Assembly (NCBI GenBank): GCA_902543535.1
Contig: CACBYG010000004.1
Coordinates: 1-64,000, forward strand
Reading direction: 5' to 3'
DNA from: an uncultured Pelagibacteraceae bacterium
GTDB taxonomy: Bacteria; Pseudomonadota; Alphaproteobacteria; Pelagibacterales; Pelagibacteraceae
DNA: 64,000 nucleotides
The position numbers and the translations under genes are program-made. The notes under the pieces were generated by a model. It was not told where the DNA came from. It did not search any database and saw only the letters and a program-made list of their open reading frames with translations. Shown here piece by piece: positions 20,840 through 55,389 of this stretch (within the stretch, counting starts at the first letter, position 1; every line of letters begins with the position of its first letter).

Positions 20840-21928
20840 TTACTGTTGTTTTGCAAAAGCAGTTCCAATTGATGCATCAGATGTTTCCATTTGTGCAATA
20901 AAAGGTACTACAATTTTCGCATGTGCAGTCATGTGCTCATAAACTTCTTTAAAGAAAGCATTTTCTGCAGCGTTCTTTTTAAGAGTTGCTTGAGCAGCAT
21001 TCATGTACTCAGTGAAATAATCAGCTGGTGTATCCCATAGTTTAACACCGTGATTTTCAGTAAGATCAATTAATGCTTTTCCATTTTCTACAGCTCTATT
21101 AGTAATGTTTCTAGTAATCATCGCTTCAGATGCAACTTCCATTGCATATTTTTGATGATCAGTTAGAGAATTATAAACATCACCATTGATGTAAATATCA
21201 CCATTAACTACGTTTTGGTGTAAACCTTGTAGGTAATAGTTTTTAAGAACTTTTTGAAAACCAAAAACTGAGTCTGGTTTTGGACAACACCATTCAGCGG
21301 CATCAATTGTTCCTTTTTCAAGTGCTGGTAAAATATCACCACCTGATAAAGATACTGATGCAATCCCGATATCTTTGTATGTTTGTCCTGGAATTCCTGG
21401 AGGAGTTCTAAATCTATATTTTCTGAAGTCATCCATATTTTTAATTGGTTCTTTAAACCAACCTAATGCCTCGGGTCCTGATGATGCCATCACGAAACCT
21501 TTAACATTCATTCCCATTTCATTCCAAAGTCTGTCGTATAACTCTTTTCCACCATTATCAAAATACCATGCTAACCATGATTTAGTTGATAATCCTATTC
21601 CACCACCTGCAACAGGTGATCCGAATAACATAGCAGCTGGGTGATAGTTAGACCAGTAGTGTGTCCATGCAGCACCACCATCAACTAAACCTTTGTCAAC
21701 AGCTTCTAAAGTTTCTTTCATACCAACAACTTCGCCTTTTGATAAAAGTTCAAATTTTAACTCTCCTCTAGTTAATTGTGTAACTCTATCAGTCCACATC
21801 TTTACGATTTGACCATCATAAGAAGTTTTAGGAAAAGTAAGTTGGATTTTTAAAGTTTTAGCTGAAGCAGTACCTATTAAAGAAACCGCAAAAACTAAAG
21901 CTAAAATCATTGAAGTGATTTTTTTCAT
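20840..21928 (-). CDS. dctP: TRAP transporter solute-binding protein (DctP)
   Basis: 362 aa periplasmic binding protein. The signal peptide ends about residue 23 (ASA-KT). The ligand-binding arginine region KYRFRTPPGIPGQTYKDIG is near 170-188 (Arg174 likely contacts a carboxylate), followed by SLSGGDILPALEKGTIDAAEW (193-213). This version resembles the TakP / mannitol-chloroaromatic group, whose characterised members bind 2-oxo acids; that substrate is inference. A strong ribosome-binding site (AGAGAGGGA) precedes the ATG. It is the first gene of dctP-dctQ-dctM. Confidence 0.93.
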   Translation of the reverse strand: MKKITSMILALVFAVSLIGTASAKTLKIQLTFPKTSYDGQIVKMWTDRVTQLTRGELKFELLSKGEVVGMKETLEAVDKGLVDGGAAWTHYWSNYHPAAMLFGSPVAGGGIGLSTKSWLAWYFDNGGKELYDRLWNEMGMNVKGFVMASSGPEALGWFKEPIKNMDDFRKYRFRTPPGIPGQTYKDIGIASVSLSGGDILPALEKGTIDAAEWCCPKPDSVFGFQKVLKNYYLQGLHQNVVNGDIYINGDVYNSLTDHQKYAMEVASEAMITRNITNRAVENGKALIDLTENHGVKLWDTPADYFTEYMNAAQATLKKNAAENAFFKEVYEHMTAHAKIVVPFIAQMETSDASIGTAFAKQQ

Positions 21929-34297: not shown

Positions 34298-36082
34298 CTA
34301 TGTAGCCAAAGATTTTTGAGGCTTCATATCTTTTTTATTAATACCTGCAACCTTTACAGGTTTTTTCATTGCATCCCTTCTAAAAGGTTCTCCAAGTTCT
34401 TGGTTTAAAATTACCTCAATAAATGTTGTAATGCCTTTTTTCTGGTCGTCACAAGATTGCTTAATAGCATTTGTAGTTTCTTCCATGCTTTTAACTGTTA
34501 CCCCTTTTAGACCACAAGCATCAGCAACTTTTGCATAACTAAGTTCTGGATCAAGTTCGGTACCAACAAAATTATCATCAAACCATAAAATAGAATTTCT
34601 TTTTTCTGCTCCCCACTGATAGTTTCTAAATATAACCATTGTTATCGAAGGCCATTCTTCTCTAGCACAAGAGCTCATTTCATTCATGCTAATACCAAAT
34701 GCTCCATCACCTGCAAAACCAATCACTGGCGTATCTGGACAGCCAATTTTTGCACCTAATATTGATGGAAAACCATATCCACAAGGACCAAATAATCCTG
34801 GAGCTAAATACTTTCTACCTTTTTCAAATGTTGGATAAGCGTTTCCAATTGCACAATTATTTCCAATATCACTTGAGATAATTACATCTTCAGGCATACC
34901 AGATTGAATTGCTCTCCAAGCTTGTCTTGGAGACATTCTGTCAGAGTCTCTTTCTCTTGCCTCTTTATTCCAAACTGTTCCTTCATCATCATCTTCATGA
35001 TCAAGACTAGATAATTTTTGTAACCATGCAGATTTAGTTTGATGAATTATATCCTTTCTTTTTTGTCTATCTTTGTCACCCGCTGTTGGAGAAAGTTGAG
35101 CAAGCAATTGTTGAGCAACTAGTTTAGCATCACCACAAATTCCAACTGAGACTTTTTTAGTTAAGCCTATACGATCGGAATTCATATCTACTTGAATGAT
35201 ACTTGCATCTTTTGGCCAATAATCCATTCCATAACCTGGTAAAGTTGAAAATGGATTTAGTCTAGTTCCTAATGCTAAAACTACATCTGCTTGTTTAATT
35301 AATTCCATCCCAGCTTTTGAACCATTGTAACCTAAAGGTCCTGCTGCTAAAGGATGACTTCCTGGAAAACTATCATTATGTTGGTAGCCCGAGCAAACTG
35401 GAGCATCTAATTTTTCTGCAAGTTTTTTACAATCTTCAATAGCCCCCCCTATAACAACTCCTGCTCCAGATAAAATTACCGGAAATTTTGCATTAGATAA
35501 TAAGTCAGCTGCTTTTTTTATTGCATCTACACCACCAGCTTGTCTTTCTAATCTAACAATTGGAGGAAGGTCTATATCAATAACTTGTGTCCAATAATCT
35601 CTTGGTACATTGATTTGTGCTGGAGCTGATCCTCTAATTGCTTTTTCAATAACTCTATTTAATACTTCTGCCATTCTAGATGGGTCTCTAACTTCCTCTT
35701 GATAACAGACCATGTCTTTAAATAAATTCATTTGTTCAACTTCTTGAAACCCGCCTTGGCCCATAGTTTTGTTAGCAGCTTGAGGTGTAACTAATAAAAG
35801 AGGAGTATGGTTCCAATAAGCAGTTTTAATTGGTGTAACCAATCCTGTAATTCCAGGACCATTCTGAGCAATAACCATTGACATTTTTCCTGTAGCTCTT
35901 GTATAGCCGTCTGCAATTAATCCACCATTAGTTTCATGAGCAACATCCCAGAATGTAATACCAGCATCTGGAAAAATATCTGAAATTGGCATAAAAGCTG
36001 AACCGATAATTCCAAAAGCGTGTTCGATTCCGTGCATTTGTAAAACTTTTACAAAAGCTTCTTCCGTTGTCATTTTTGTCAT
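34298..36082 (-). CDS. xsc: Sulfoacetaldehyde acetyltransferase
   Basis: 594 aa ThDP enzyme that converts sulfoacetaldehyde and phosphate into acetyl phosphate and sulfite, the desulfonation step of taurine, isethionate and similar compounds. Seen: activating Glu50 in HETNGGLIADGY, QNGPGITGLVTP, and the ThDP-binding GDGAFG at 458-463 followed by asparagine (SMNEMSS). The overall sequence (QVGGFQEVEQMNLFKDM-like segment, RDYWTQVIDID) matches Xsc rather than acetolactate synthase. A GAGAGG ribosome site precedes the start. It is divergent from suyAB. The gene for phosphate acetyltransferase, its usual partner, is not in the window. Confidence 0.94.
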   Translation of the reverse strand: MTKMTTEEAFVKVLQMHGIEHAFGIIGSAFMPISDIFPDAGITFWDVAHETNGGLIADGYTRATGKMSMVIAQNGPGITGLVTPIKTAYWNHTPLLLVTPQAANKTMGQGGFQEVEQMNLFKDMVCYQEEVRDPSRMAEVLNRVIEKAIRGSAPAQINVPRDYWTQVIDIDLPPIVRLERQAGGVDAIKKAADLLSNAKFPVILSGAGVVIGGAIEDCKKLAEKLDAPVCSGYQHNDSFPGSHPLAAGPLGYNGSKAGMELIKQADVVLALGTRLNPFSTLPGYGMDYWPKDASIIQVDMNSDRIGLTKKVSVGICGDAKLVAQQLLAQLSPTAGDKDRQKRKDIIHQTKSAWLQKLSSLDHEDDDEGTVWNKEARERDSDRMSPRQAWRAIQSGMPEDVIISSDIGNNCAIGNAYPTFEKGRKYLAPGLFGPCGYGFPSILGAKIGCPDTPVIGFAGDGAFGISMNEMSSCAREEWPSITMVIFRNYQWGAEKRNSILWFDDNFVGTELDPELSYAKVADACGLKGVTVKSMEETTNAIKQSCDDQKKGITTFIEVILNQELGEPFRRDAMKKPVKVAGINKKDMKPQKSLAT

Positions 36083-53402: not shown

Positions 53403-53870
53403 ATGTTAAAAATAAATTCTAAAGCTCCAGCTTTCAGTTCTCAATCAACATCTAAAAAAAATTATTCTTTAAAAGATTCTATTGGAAAATACGTTGTTTT
53501 GTATTTCTATCCCAAAGACGATACACCTGGGTGTACAACTGAAACTAACGATTTTAATAAATTTCTATCAAAATTTAAAAAATTAAATTGTGAAGTTTAT
53601 GGAATTTCAAAGGATAATTTGGCAAGTCATGATAAATTTAAAGATAAATATAAGATAAAATTTGATTTATTAGCAGACGAAGAATTAAAACTTCTCAAAA
53701 AATACAAAGTTTGGGGTAAAAAGAAATTCATGGGTCGAGAATTTATGGGAACAATTCGGTCAACTTACTTAATTGATAAAAAAGGTAAAGTGTTAAAAAC
53801 TTGGACAAACGTCAAAGTTAAAGACCATGCTAAAGAGGTTCTAGAAACTCTTAAAAGTATTTCAAAATAA
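53403..53870 (+). CDS. bcp: Thioredoxin-dependent peroxiredoxin (Bcp/PrxQ)
   Basis: 155 aa. The peroxidatic Cys44 is in YPKDDTPGCTTETNDF; the second cysteine found five residues later in two-Cys Bcp proteins is missing, so it may be a 1-Cys type or use Cys in KLNCEVYG. It reduces hydroperoxides in the cytoplasm. Later conserved segments LLADEELKLLKKYKVWGKK and RSTYLIDKKGKV are as in the family. Divergent from the rhodanese gene. Length is normal. Confidence 0.93.
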   Translation: MLKINSKAPAFSSQSTSKKNYSLKDSIGKYVVLYFYPKDDTPGCTTETNDFNKFLSKFKKLNCEVYGISKDNLASHDKFKDKYKIKFDLLADEELKLLKKYKVWGKKKFMGREFMGTIRSTYLIDKKGKVLKTWTNVKVKDHAKEVLETLKSISK

Positions 53871-53872
53871 AA

Positions 53873-53890
53873 AGGCCCCTTTCGGGGCCT
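53873..53890 (-). terminator. Rho-independent terminator of amt
   Basis: AGGCCCC pairs with GGGGCCT around a GAAA tetraloop (minus strand), followed on the minus strand by TTTTTATTTT. The T-run is on the minus-strand side, so it ends the amt transcript about 100 nt after the stop codon. On the plus strand it directly follows bcp but has no T-run, so bcp would be only weakly terminated. Confidence 0.85.
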
Positions 53891-53935
53891 CAGATTAACT
53901 AACAAGAGAGAGAGATATTTGTTAATTTTTTGTTA

Positions 53936-53978
53936 GGAGCTCTTCAATGAGATAACGACATGGAGATCGAAGAGCCCC
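53936..53978 (-). other. Stem-loop in the amt 3' region (candidate 3'-UTR RNA)
   Basis: On the minus strand GGGGCTCTTC (53978-53969) pairs over ten positions (one G-U) with GAAGAGCTCC (53945-53936), enclosing a 23-nt loop. It lies between the amt stop and the terminator. Together with the terminator it gives about 120 nt of structured, non-coding RNA that could be an mRNA-stabilising element or be processed into a small RNA. Confidence 0.5.
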
Positions 53979-53992
53979 TATATTGCATGCAA

Positions 53993-55294
53993 TTAGTCTC
54001 GTATTGCGTATGCTATTACACCTGTTTCGGTTACGTCAGTACCTTTAGCTTCAGCTTCTTTACTTAGTCTAATTCCAAAAGTAGCTTTCATAACTGAGAA
54101 CACGATATATGACACGACAAATACAAAAATGTTAATCGACAGCACACCAATTATTTGTGCACTAAAGTTTGCATCAGTATTTGTTAGTGGCACTGCAAGT
54201 GTTCCCCATATTCCAGCAAACATGTGAGCTGGAATTGCACCTACAACATCGTCAAGTTTGAAACTGAACAATAACTTAGTTCCAAATACAACGATTAAAC
54301 CACCTACAGCTCCAATGAAAATTGCAGCTAGTGGTGTTGGCGCTAATGGTTCAGCAGTTACTGCTACTAATCCACCGATTGCTCCGTTTAACATTTGTAC
54401 AACATCTGTTTTACCATACATTAATCTTGTTATTGTTGCTGCAGCCATTACACCACCACAAGCAGCAAGATTAGTATTGATAAAAATGCTTGACACAGCT
54501 ACTGCATCATCAAATGTTCCAATAGCTAATTGAGATCCACCATTGAATCCAAACCAACCTAGCCATAGGATAAATACACCTACCGTTACTAATGGAATTG
54601 AAGAAGCAGCAAAAGGTTTAATTGCTTTCGCCTCACCTTTGCTATCAAATCGTCCATATCGTGAACCTAGTAGCATTATACCAGCTAGTGCAGCAGCACC
54701 ACCTGTTGAGTGTACTAAAGTTGAACCAGCGAAATCTGAGAAGCCAAGTTCTGCTAACCAGCCTCCACCCCACTGCCAACCCATTACGATAGGATAAATA
54801 ATTCCAGCTAAGATTGCTGCGAAAAGAAAGAAAGGCCAAAGTTTTACTCTTTCAGCCATTGCTCCTGAACAAATTGAAACTGTTGTTGCACAGAAAACCA
54901 TTTGGAAATACCAGTCAGAACCATCTGCATATCCAGTTTCAACTGAACTTGCATCTGACCATGGGGTAAATGTTCCAATGTATCCTCCTTCTGGGATTCC
55001 ATACGCTAAGTTATATCCAAATAACCAAAACATTATTCCAGCAATTGAGTAAAGACCAATGTTCTTTGCACAAATTACTGAAACACTTTTTGAAGTTACC
55101 ATACCAGACTCTAGCATCGCAAAACCTGCAGCCATAAACATGACAAGGAAACCACAAATTAGAAATAGTAGTGAATTGAATATAGCTTGTACTTCAGCAG
55201 AAACAGTTGTCTCTGCCATTCCTGCACTACTCATATTTAATAGAATTATTAAACTAAGAAGTGGTGCAGATATTCTTTTTATTAATTTAGTCAT
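53993..55294 (-). CDS. amt: Ammonium transporter (Amt)
   Basis: 433 aa. An N-terminal signal-like helix is followed by about 11 transmembrane helices. Family segments are WGGGWLAELGFSDFAGSTLVHSTGGAAALAG near residues 175-205 (with the pore histidine) and GAIPAHMFAGIWGTLAVP near 360 with the second pore histidine. It moves ammonium inward and is important for nitrogen supply. A perfect GGAGG ribosome-binding site sits 5 nt before the ATG. No glnB/glnK gene is next to it inside the window. It ends in the structured region and terminator described separately. Confidence 0.96.
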   Translation of the reverse strand: MTKLIKRISAPLLSLIILLNMSSAGMAETTVSAEVQAIFNSLLFLICGFLVMFMAAGFAMLESGMVTSKSVSVICAKNIGLYSIAGIMFWLFGYNLAYGIPEGGYIGTFTPWSDASSVETGYADGSDWYFQMVFCATTVSICSGAMAERVKLWPFFLFAAILAGIIYPIVMGWQWGGGWLAELGFSDFAGSTLVHSTGGAAALAGIMLLGSRYGRFDSKGEAKAIKPFAASSIPLVTVGVFILWLGWFGFNGGSQLAIGTFDDAVAVSSIFINTNLAACGGVMAAATITRLMYGKTDVVQMLNGAIGGLVAVTAEPLAPTPLAAIFIGAVGGLIVVFGTKLLFSFKLDDVVGAIPAHMFAGIWGTLAVPLTNTDANFSAQIIGVLSINIFVFVVSYIVFSVMKATFGIRLSKEAEAKGTDVTETGVIAYAIRD

Positions 55295-55389
55295 AAGACC
55301 TCCACTGTTAAAGCAGAGTTTATATTTTTTAATAAAACTAATAACTAACGCTGATTAGGAAAATTGGCTATGCGGTATTTGCATATAGA

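Follow-up and report, generated by a model that had tools for sequence, protein, structure and literature searches.

SAR11 bacteria, which count among the ocean's most abundant cells, compete for ammonium. Small RNAs derived from the 3' UTRs of mRNAs exist, such as GlnZ from glnA in Escherichia coli. The alphaproteobacterial cuckoo RNAs alpha-r14/NfeR1 are described, in the portions of PMC10746234 available to us, as three hairpins that carry the anti-SD motif CCUCCUCCC in their unpaired parts, with stems far more variable than the motif; they are reported to be Hfq-independent and tied to nitrogen control. For Candidatus Pelagibacter ubique, structured RNAs in intergenic regions were reported by Meyer et al. 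2009 (PMC2704228), who list, among other gaps, those upstream of amtB and amt, and the portions of that paper examined describe no motif 3' of amt. Likewise, no structured RNA 3' of amt in SAR11 is named in the titles and abstracts found, a search outside whose scope most subscription papers lay. According to the part of a Red Sea transcript study that was available, ammonium transport is one of the functions served by active promoters that map to a SAR11 genome, and amt is therefore taken to be expressed in nature.

Here we analysed a stretch of 64,000 nucleotides from an uncultured Pelagibacteraceae bacterium (the window), in which amt and a peroxiredoxin gene are convergent and the gap between both genes is a structured region (Table 1). 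On the minus strand this region is the amt 3' UTR. Like alpha-r14, as covered in the available portions of its description, the tail of amt has several hairpins, anti-SD-like loops and variable stems. Unlike it, the amt tail uses CUCUCU, CUCCC or AUCUCC as its motif, CCUCCUCCC being absent from the window element; it is the 3' UTR of amt, known here from sequence, and its best-matching target is often its own gene or a paralogue. Like the small RNAs derived from 3' UTRs, of which GlnZ is one, the element would share its mRNA and terminator with a nitrogen gene; unlike them, it is predicted from DNA, and no Hfq was found in the 21 Pelagibacterales genomes searched, of which 11 are near-complete. 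On our reading, the tail could be an alpha-r14-like anti-ribosome-site RNA directed at amt. No Rfam family reached its curated score at the element, and the whole window gave three tRNAs only. Between positions 53840 and 54020, 18 Rfam matches were obtained at E-values up to 5, all below the curated score and none of them alpha-r14. A known RNA family was rejected; the best sub-threshold matches, Histone3 and Atu_C8, are based mostly on the stem of the terminator.

The amt product scored 574 bits against TIGR03644 (probable ammonium transporter, marine subtype), above the cut-off, and also matched PF00909. Four hairpins, hp0 to hp3, follow the gene, the first base of hp0 being the last base of the amt stop codon. 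The original prediction had placed a 10-bp stem with a 23-nt loop after this stop codon; the stem-loop is present as hp1, with a stem of 11 bp (AGGGGCTCTTC, 53979-53969, with GAAGAGCTCCT, 53945-53935; loop 53968-53946), which RNAfold lengthens to 15 bp (53980-53966 with 53948-53934) together with a 3-bp inner helix. The GAAA-loop terminator with a T-run on the minus strand was likewise recovered, as hp3, whose T-rich tail runs into the end of bcp on the opposite strand. What had been described as a T-rich spacer corresponds, in the transcribed orientation, to a further hairpin, hp2 (53927-53897); the structure is real and larger than first proposed, comprising hp0 and hp2 in addition. The loop of hp2 carries the sole TCTCTCTCT run in the 64 kb, where 0.2-0.4 such runs are expected by chance. 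As RNA, the loops of the window read GAUCUCC...UAUCUCAUU (hp1), CUCUCUCUCU (hp2) and GAAA (hp3). Of the four hairpins, hp3 alone has the features of an intrinsic terminator, namely a GC-rich stem with a T-run behind it in the transcribed orientation; hp0, hp1 and hp2 are extra. With RNAfold, the minus strand forms three consecutive hairpins with a fold energy of -42.3 kcal/mol (z = -4.97), a stability equalled by none of 200 shuffles; the plus-strand fold is weaker (z = -2.95, with 1 of 200 shuffles equally stable).

Table 1. Coordinates of the amt locus, of the hairpins in its 3' UTR and of other candidate targets in the window
Feature	Position	Strand	Basis
hp0, mini-hairpin ATTG-CATG-CAAT, 4 pairs, 12 nt	53982-53993	minus	covariation
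hp1, stem-loop with 23-nt loop	53934-53980	minus	RNAfold, covariation, covariance model
hp1 loop, GATCTCCATGTCGTTATCTCATT	53946-53968	minus	pairing scores, conservation
hp2, AT-rich stem, CU-rich loop (CTCTCTCTCT at 53914-53905; loop also given as CUCUCUCU)	53897-53927	minus	
hp3, intrinsic terminator of the amt transcript, GGCCCC-GAAA-GGGGCC	53867-53891	minus	stem 53891-53872, T-rich tail
amt, ammonium transporter (marine subtype), 433 aa	53993-55294	minus	TIGR03644, PF00909
AhpC/TSA-family peroxiredoxin, labelled 'bcp'	53403-53870	plus	
amt ribosome-binding site GTGGAGGTC, proposed loop target	55297-55305	minus	
amt leader hairpin CTCTGCT-TTAAC-AGTGGAG, over the ribosome-binding site	55300-55318	minus	predicted fold
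TRAP substrate-binding protein, start site AGAGAGGG	20840-21928		hp2 match
xsc, sulfoacetaldehyde acetyltransferase, start site AGAGAGG	34298-36082		hp2 match

DNA 3' of amt was gathered from 90 loci. By our own reading, 42 of them have an hp1 of the window type, and a similar hairpin of other sequence occurs in L076, L089 and L098. Candidatus Pelagibacter ubique SCGC AAA795-J21 (L209) is a named carrier of the element. In a scripted search, 76 of the 90 loci had a CU-rich run inside a hairpin loop and the other 14 had none, some of these runs belonging to an hp1 or terminator loop or to a doubtful short stem; locus L108 has a terminator alone behind amt. Thirty-seven of the 42 hp1-bearing loci, 33 of them distinct, were aligned (alignment A1) after omission of the near-duplicates L036, L038, L065, L073 and L090. 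Over hp0 and hp1 together, 98.9% of the cells are paired and 13 of 17 pairs have changes on both sides, with a covariation score of 0.434, versus 40-56% paired cells and scores of 0.077-0.153 in controls with slid partners. Within hp0, 99.2% of the cells are paired and two of the four pairs change on both sides; in five sequences, the change of the stop codon from TAA to TAG is matched by a T to C change opposite. Eleven of the 13 pairs counted in hp1 change on both sides, and the stem tolerates G-U changes.

The covariance model R1 had matches in 116 of 300 genomes of the genus. The position of 42 matches was checked, and every one of these (30 of 30 and 12 of 12, weak ones included) starts at the amt stop or within 20 nt of it, in sense orientation. 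Each genome with a match has R1 at a single place, if weak matches to the opposite strand of the same hairpin in four genomes are set aside, and a repeat or mobile element was rejected on this ground. Compensatory changes beyond the controls at a conserved position, as expected of a conserved structured RNA, were thus found. A lack of such changes among relatives had been named as part of what would refute the original prediction; the opposite was observed, and good support was thereby obtained for a functional structured RNA at the 3' end of amt.

The loop is even more constrained than the stem. Among 16 genomes of the window clade, the 23 nt of the hp1 loop are identical in 14 and differ by one base in two; the mean pairwise difference is 0.010 in the loop, 0.061 in the stem and 0.297 at the fourfold sites of amt, and only 1 of 1276 coding windows of loop length is as conserved as the loop. 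In a second hp1 clade, the length and the middle of the loop vary widely, and the internal-loop strands CUCUCUG and ACUCAU are both conserved. We regard it as near certain that a strongly selected, amt-linked structured RNA lies behind amt.

At locus L169 (genome G015), a divergent amt (63% identical) has an hp0-hp1 of the second-clade type 3' of the ORF, suggesting that the locus retains the element even where the type of gene is different. Locus L226 has two successive hairpins of such style after amt (AGAGGAACTCTTC... and AAGGGGTCTTTTG...).

Each loop was scored against gene starts (-25 to +9) by the best contiguous helix, G-U pairs being allowed, with a script of our own and stacking values entered by hand; the ranks in three background genomes were repeated with ViennaRNA. 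Gene starts were taken from a simple script, the loops were picked after the sequences had been viewed, and the background consisted of 473 starts from the window and two Pelagibacter genomes. For the hp1 loop of the window, amt ranked first of 67 starts by helix score as well as by ViennaRNA duplex energy; in a first scoring, based on longer loops and less refined gene starts, it had come seventh of 66. The 5' part of this loop (53968-53960) fits the amt site over 9 bp (GAUCUCCAU with GUGGAGGUC), and, in the relatives that bear amt2, the site and start codon of amt2 are matched by the 3' part (about 53959-53949). For the hp2 loop of the window, its own amt ranked 9 or 20 of 67, depending on the score. 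In the second hp1 clade, the loop CUCUCUGU has an 8-bp fit with the site ACAGGGAG (ACAGGGAGG), loop and site both being unlike those of the window clade.

Own hp1 pairing fell within the best 2.2% of the 473 starts in 25 of 35 genomes, and notable own hp1 pairing was absent in the other 10, two of which (G106 and G119) have uncertain starts. Eight genomes in which the stem finder had missed hp1 (G113, G115, G040, G049, G034, G170, G062 and G061) were excluded by hand from this count; all eight are covered by the comparison of CU-run pairing, and G170, G062 and G061 also by that of the distant family described below. Lineages with hp2 and without hp1 have just 4-7 bp to their own amt. In G377, the hp1 loop places amt at rank 6 or 28 of 199 starts, depending on the score, and the terminator loop places it second of 199; rank 1 of 199 for hp1 is held there by the isocitrate lyase gene (G377:C1:486587-487861, in L298; site ACAGGGAGUAAUAAUGAGU). 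AUGAGU in that site also complements the conserved ACUCAU strand. The SAR11 clades are separated by few independent changes in site and loop. The proposed link to nitrogen control is based on the linkage to amt and on the pairing of the loops with amt ribosome-binding sites, which is present in many lineages, not in all.

Some relatives carry amt1 and amt2 in tandem. In four such genomes (G006, G122, G024 and G155), the hp1 loop pairs through its 5' part with amt1, over 9 bp in three and over 7 in G024, and through its 3' part with the amt2 site and start codon over 10-11 bp, a fit equalled by 0-0.6% of the 473 starts. In the same genomes hp2 pairs with amt2 over 8-11 bp (0-1.1% of the background), and the loop behind amt2 with amt2's own site over 8-9 bp (0.6-2.8%). 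Among the 211 starts of G122, helix scores gave amt2 rank 2 and amt1 rank 3 for hp1, and amt2 rank 1 for hp2 (11 bp); by duplex energy, those three ranks are 6, 2 and 1. Nine of the 16 window-clade genomes show one amt only, many being incomplete (G022 and G147 are 90-92% complete). The half of the loop that matches amt2 is nevertheless retained in them and must therefore have another reason or be a relic.

As a class, gene starts hardly beat gene interiors as hp1 partners (-8.31/-7.97, -8.44/-8.39 and -8.35/-8.21), which argues against a broad anti-SD activity in SAR11, and a generic anti-SD RNA was rejected on this mean pairing. As a target, glnA was rejected, with 5-7 bp only (judged by eye). 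The CU motif is not exclusive to amt 3' ends, as a few other genes have CTCTCT, CTCCCT or TCCCCT within 250 nt downstream.

In the second family of the order (f2), a single hairpin, its loop containing UCCC or UCCCC, follows amt. Where amt is in tandem, the hairpin behind one copy fits the site of the other copy, over 11 bp in G100, 10 in G074, 10 in G063 and 8 in G164, and, from the second to the first copy, over 12 bp in G099 and 8 bp in G096, all at 0-0.6% of a background that is made up of the 473 starts from the other family (the window and two Pelagibacter genomes). The tandem of G168 reaches 6 bp only (2.3% of background). Against the non-matching copy, the score is ordinary in the five cases tested, 8-65% of the background being as good. 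In G063, loop and site have both changed: their own pairing is 10 bp (-16.2), whereas the site reaches 6 bp (-10.9) with the other three f2 loops and the loop -12.3, -14.3 and -12.3 with the other three f2 sites. Single-copy genomes of this family have 6-8 bp (3-11% of background). In G100, G074, G063 and G164, this hairpin has no T-run and stands directly 5' of the gene that it matches, which would allow a pseudoknot to form in cis.

PII (PF00543) was found in none of 13 genomes of the window's genus (G000-G012), three of them at least 90% complete, and in seven of eight genomes of the distant family (G061-G068). Loop-site pairing is therefore independent of the absence of PII. The combination of hp0 and hp1 was observed here only in the genus without PII, which may serve as a lead. 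ProQ was not found in the same 21 Pelagibacterales genomes as Hfq, a weak test in that its positive control gave a signal only in E. coli; a classical Hfq or ProQ small RNA was rejected, neither chaperone having been found in these genomes.

In other Alphaproteobacteria, a hairpin with an anti-SD-like loop occurs within 130 nt of the amt stop in 11 of 39 loci, versus 43 of 780 shuffles (5.5%). Among the 11 are L258, L260, L265 and L272 (labelled Sphingomonadaceae), L273 (Sphingorhabdus) and L270 (Croceicoccus), in which several such hairpins precede the terminator, with loops of the CUCUCCUCCC and CUCCUG types. No Rfam match was found in 20 non-SAR11 alphaproteobacterial amt loci. For the Sphingomonadaceae loci and two others from Alphaproteobacteria, self-pairing came to 4-7 contiguous bp at the likely starts and is unsupported.

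Upstream of amt, folds similar to the leader hairpin of the window are predicted in many, but not all, relatives. Their left arms are pyrimidine-rich and differ from one another, often still pairing with the constant ribosome-binding site. Further upstream, a dyad TATGC-N7-GCATA is found at 55369-55385, and TATGCA...TGCATA dyads are present upstream of amt in many relatives (judged by eye); we take the dyad to resemble NtrC/NtrX-type half-sites.

We propose, with a probability of roughly 0.4, that the loops of the hp0-hp1-hp2-terminator tail are antisense to the ribosome-binding sites of amt and amt2 and provide an RNA feedback that caps transporter translation. The amt mRNA would end in this module with its unpaired loops exposed, and an abundant tail, acting as a released small RNA or still within the mRNA, could occupy the sites of amt and, where present, of amt2 by contacts of 7-12 bp. 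Occupied sites would lower new transporter synthesis, and translation would thereby be capped. Given the leader hairpin predicted over it in the window and in many relatives, the amt site may be contested by the leader arm, the ribosome and the 3' loop. In favour of this mechanism, amt genes rank first or close to first among all gene starts in several lineages, and loop and site differ jointly between lineages; against it, the 23 invariant bases exceed the need of a lone 9-bp contact. The tail is probably an anti-start-site regulator of the amt genes, and a small RNA originating from it is plausible. From the sequences we infer that pairing would take place in the cell, that it would repress, and that a separate small RNA may be formed.

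Part of the same evidence could also be explained by a small RNA of general reach that is made from the amt 3' UTR, acts in trans and silences several mRNAs via its CU-rich loops in the manner of alpha-r14 RNAs, amt being one target among them or a chance one. There are several such loops per RNA, and the best two of 67 starts for the hp2 loop of the window are those of the TRAP substrate-binding protein and xsc, whose counterparts in G122 (orthologous by start-site sequence only) take hp2 ranks 2 and 5 of 211. The first rank of isocitrate lyase for the G377 hp1, the retention of hp2 in lineages where it fits amt poorly and the excess of anti-SD loop hairpins after amt in other Alphaproteobacteria point the same way. 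However, the mean pairing of the loops with starts is hardly above that with interiors, the xsc and TRAP sites vary between relatives (judged by eye), and neither Hfq nor ProQ was found in the 21 genomes, although NfeR1 is Hfq-independent according to the available part of PMC10746234. We therefore consider a general silencer of this kind unlikely, and xsc and the TRAP protein may be regarded as candidates only for extra targets.

The excess of invariant bases over a 9-bp contact, which extends to all 23 loop positions in the window clade, would be accounted for if hp1 were an element recognised by a protein or a small molecule through its outer stem, pyrimidine-rich internal loop and inner helix, the match to the site being a by-product of CU-richness. 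The conservation of the CUCUCUG and ACUCAU strands in the second clade agrees with such recognition, but the wide variation of the loop in that clade in length and middle, and the paralogue-specific matches in tandem amt genes, do not, and we hold it to be improbable. Quite improbable, in our view, is a mere mRNA 3' end, whose hairpins would serve to stop transcription and to protect the amt mRNA from exonucleases: a terminator with hairpins ahead of it is indeed present, yet a pure protector offers no explanation for a loop far more conserved than its stem, and relatives manage with a short hairpin and a terminator or, in L108, with the terminator alone. That the element acts as DNA, as a dyad for a DNA-binding protein, is scarcely credible. 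Although hp0 is often a perfect palindrome (TTGCATGCAA, TTGTTAACAA), some hp0 loops are non-palindromic (TTGCTTGCAA, TTGCATACAATGCAA), G-U changes are tolerated in the stem, and all 42 checked R1 matches are sense-oriented after amt.

An extension of the proposed antisense feedback, which we find doubtful as a whole, is that in a SAR11 genus without detected PII the amt tail, with its dual antisense loop, would let the message level cap translation and balance the paralogues as a protein-free feedback, that distant tandem operons would use a cis pseudoknot, and that the hairpins of other Alphaproteobacteria would be related. For the tuning of ammonium uptake in a genus in which PII was not detected, the covarying amt-linked RNA is a concrete and testable candidate. 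If the proposed function is true, anti-SD hairpin RNAs would extend to streamlined genomes without detected Hfq, and to a self-targeting 3' UTR.
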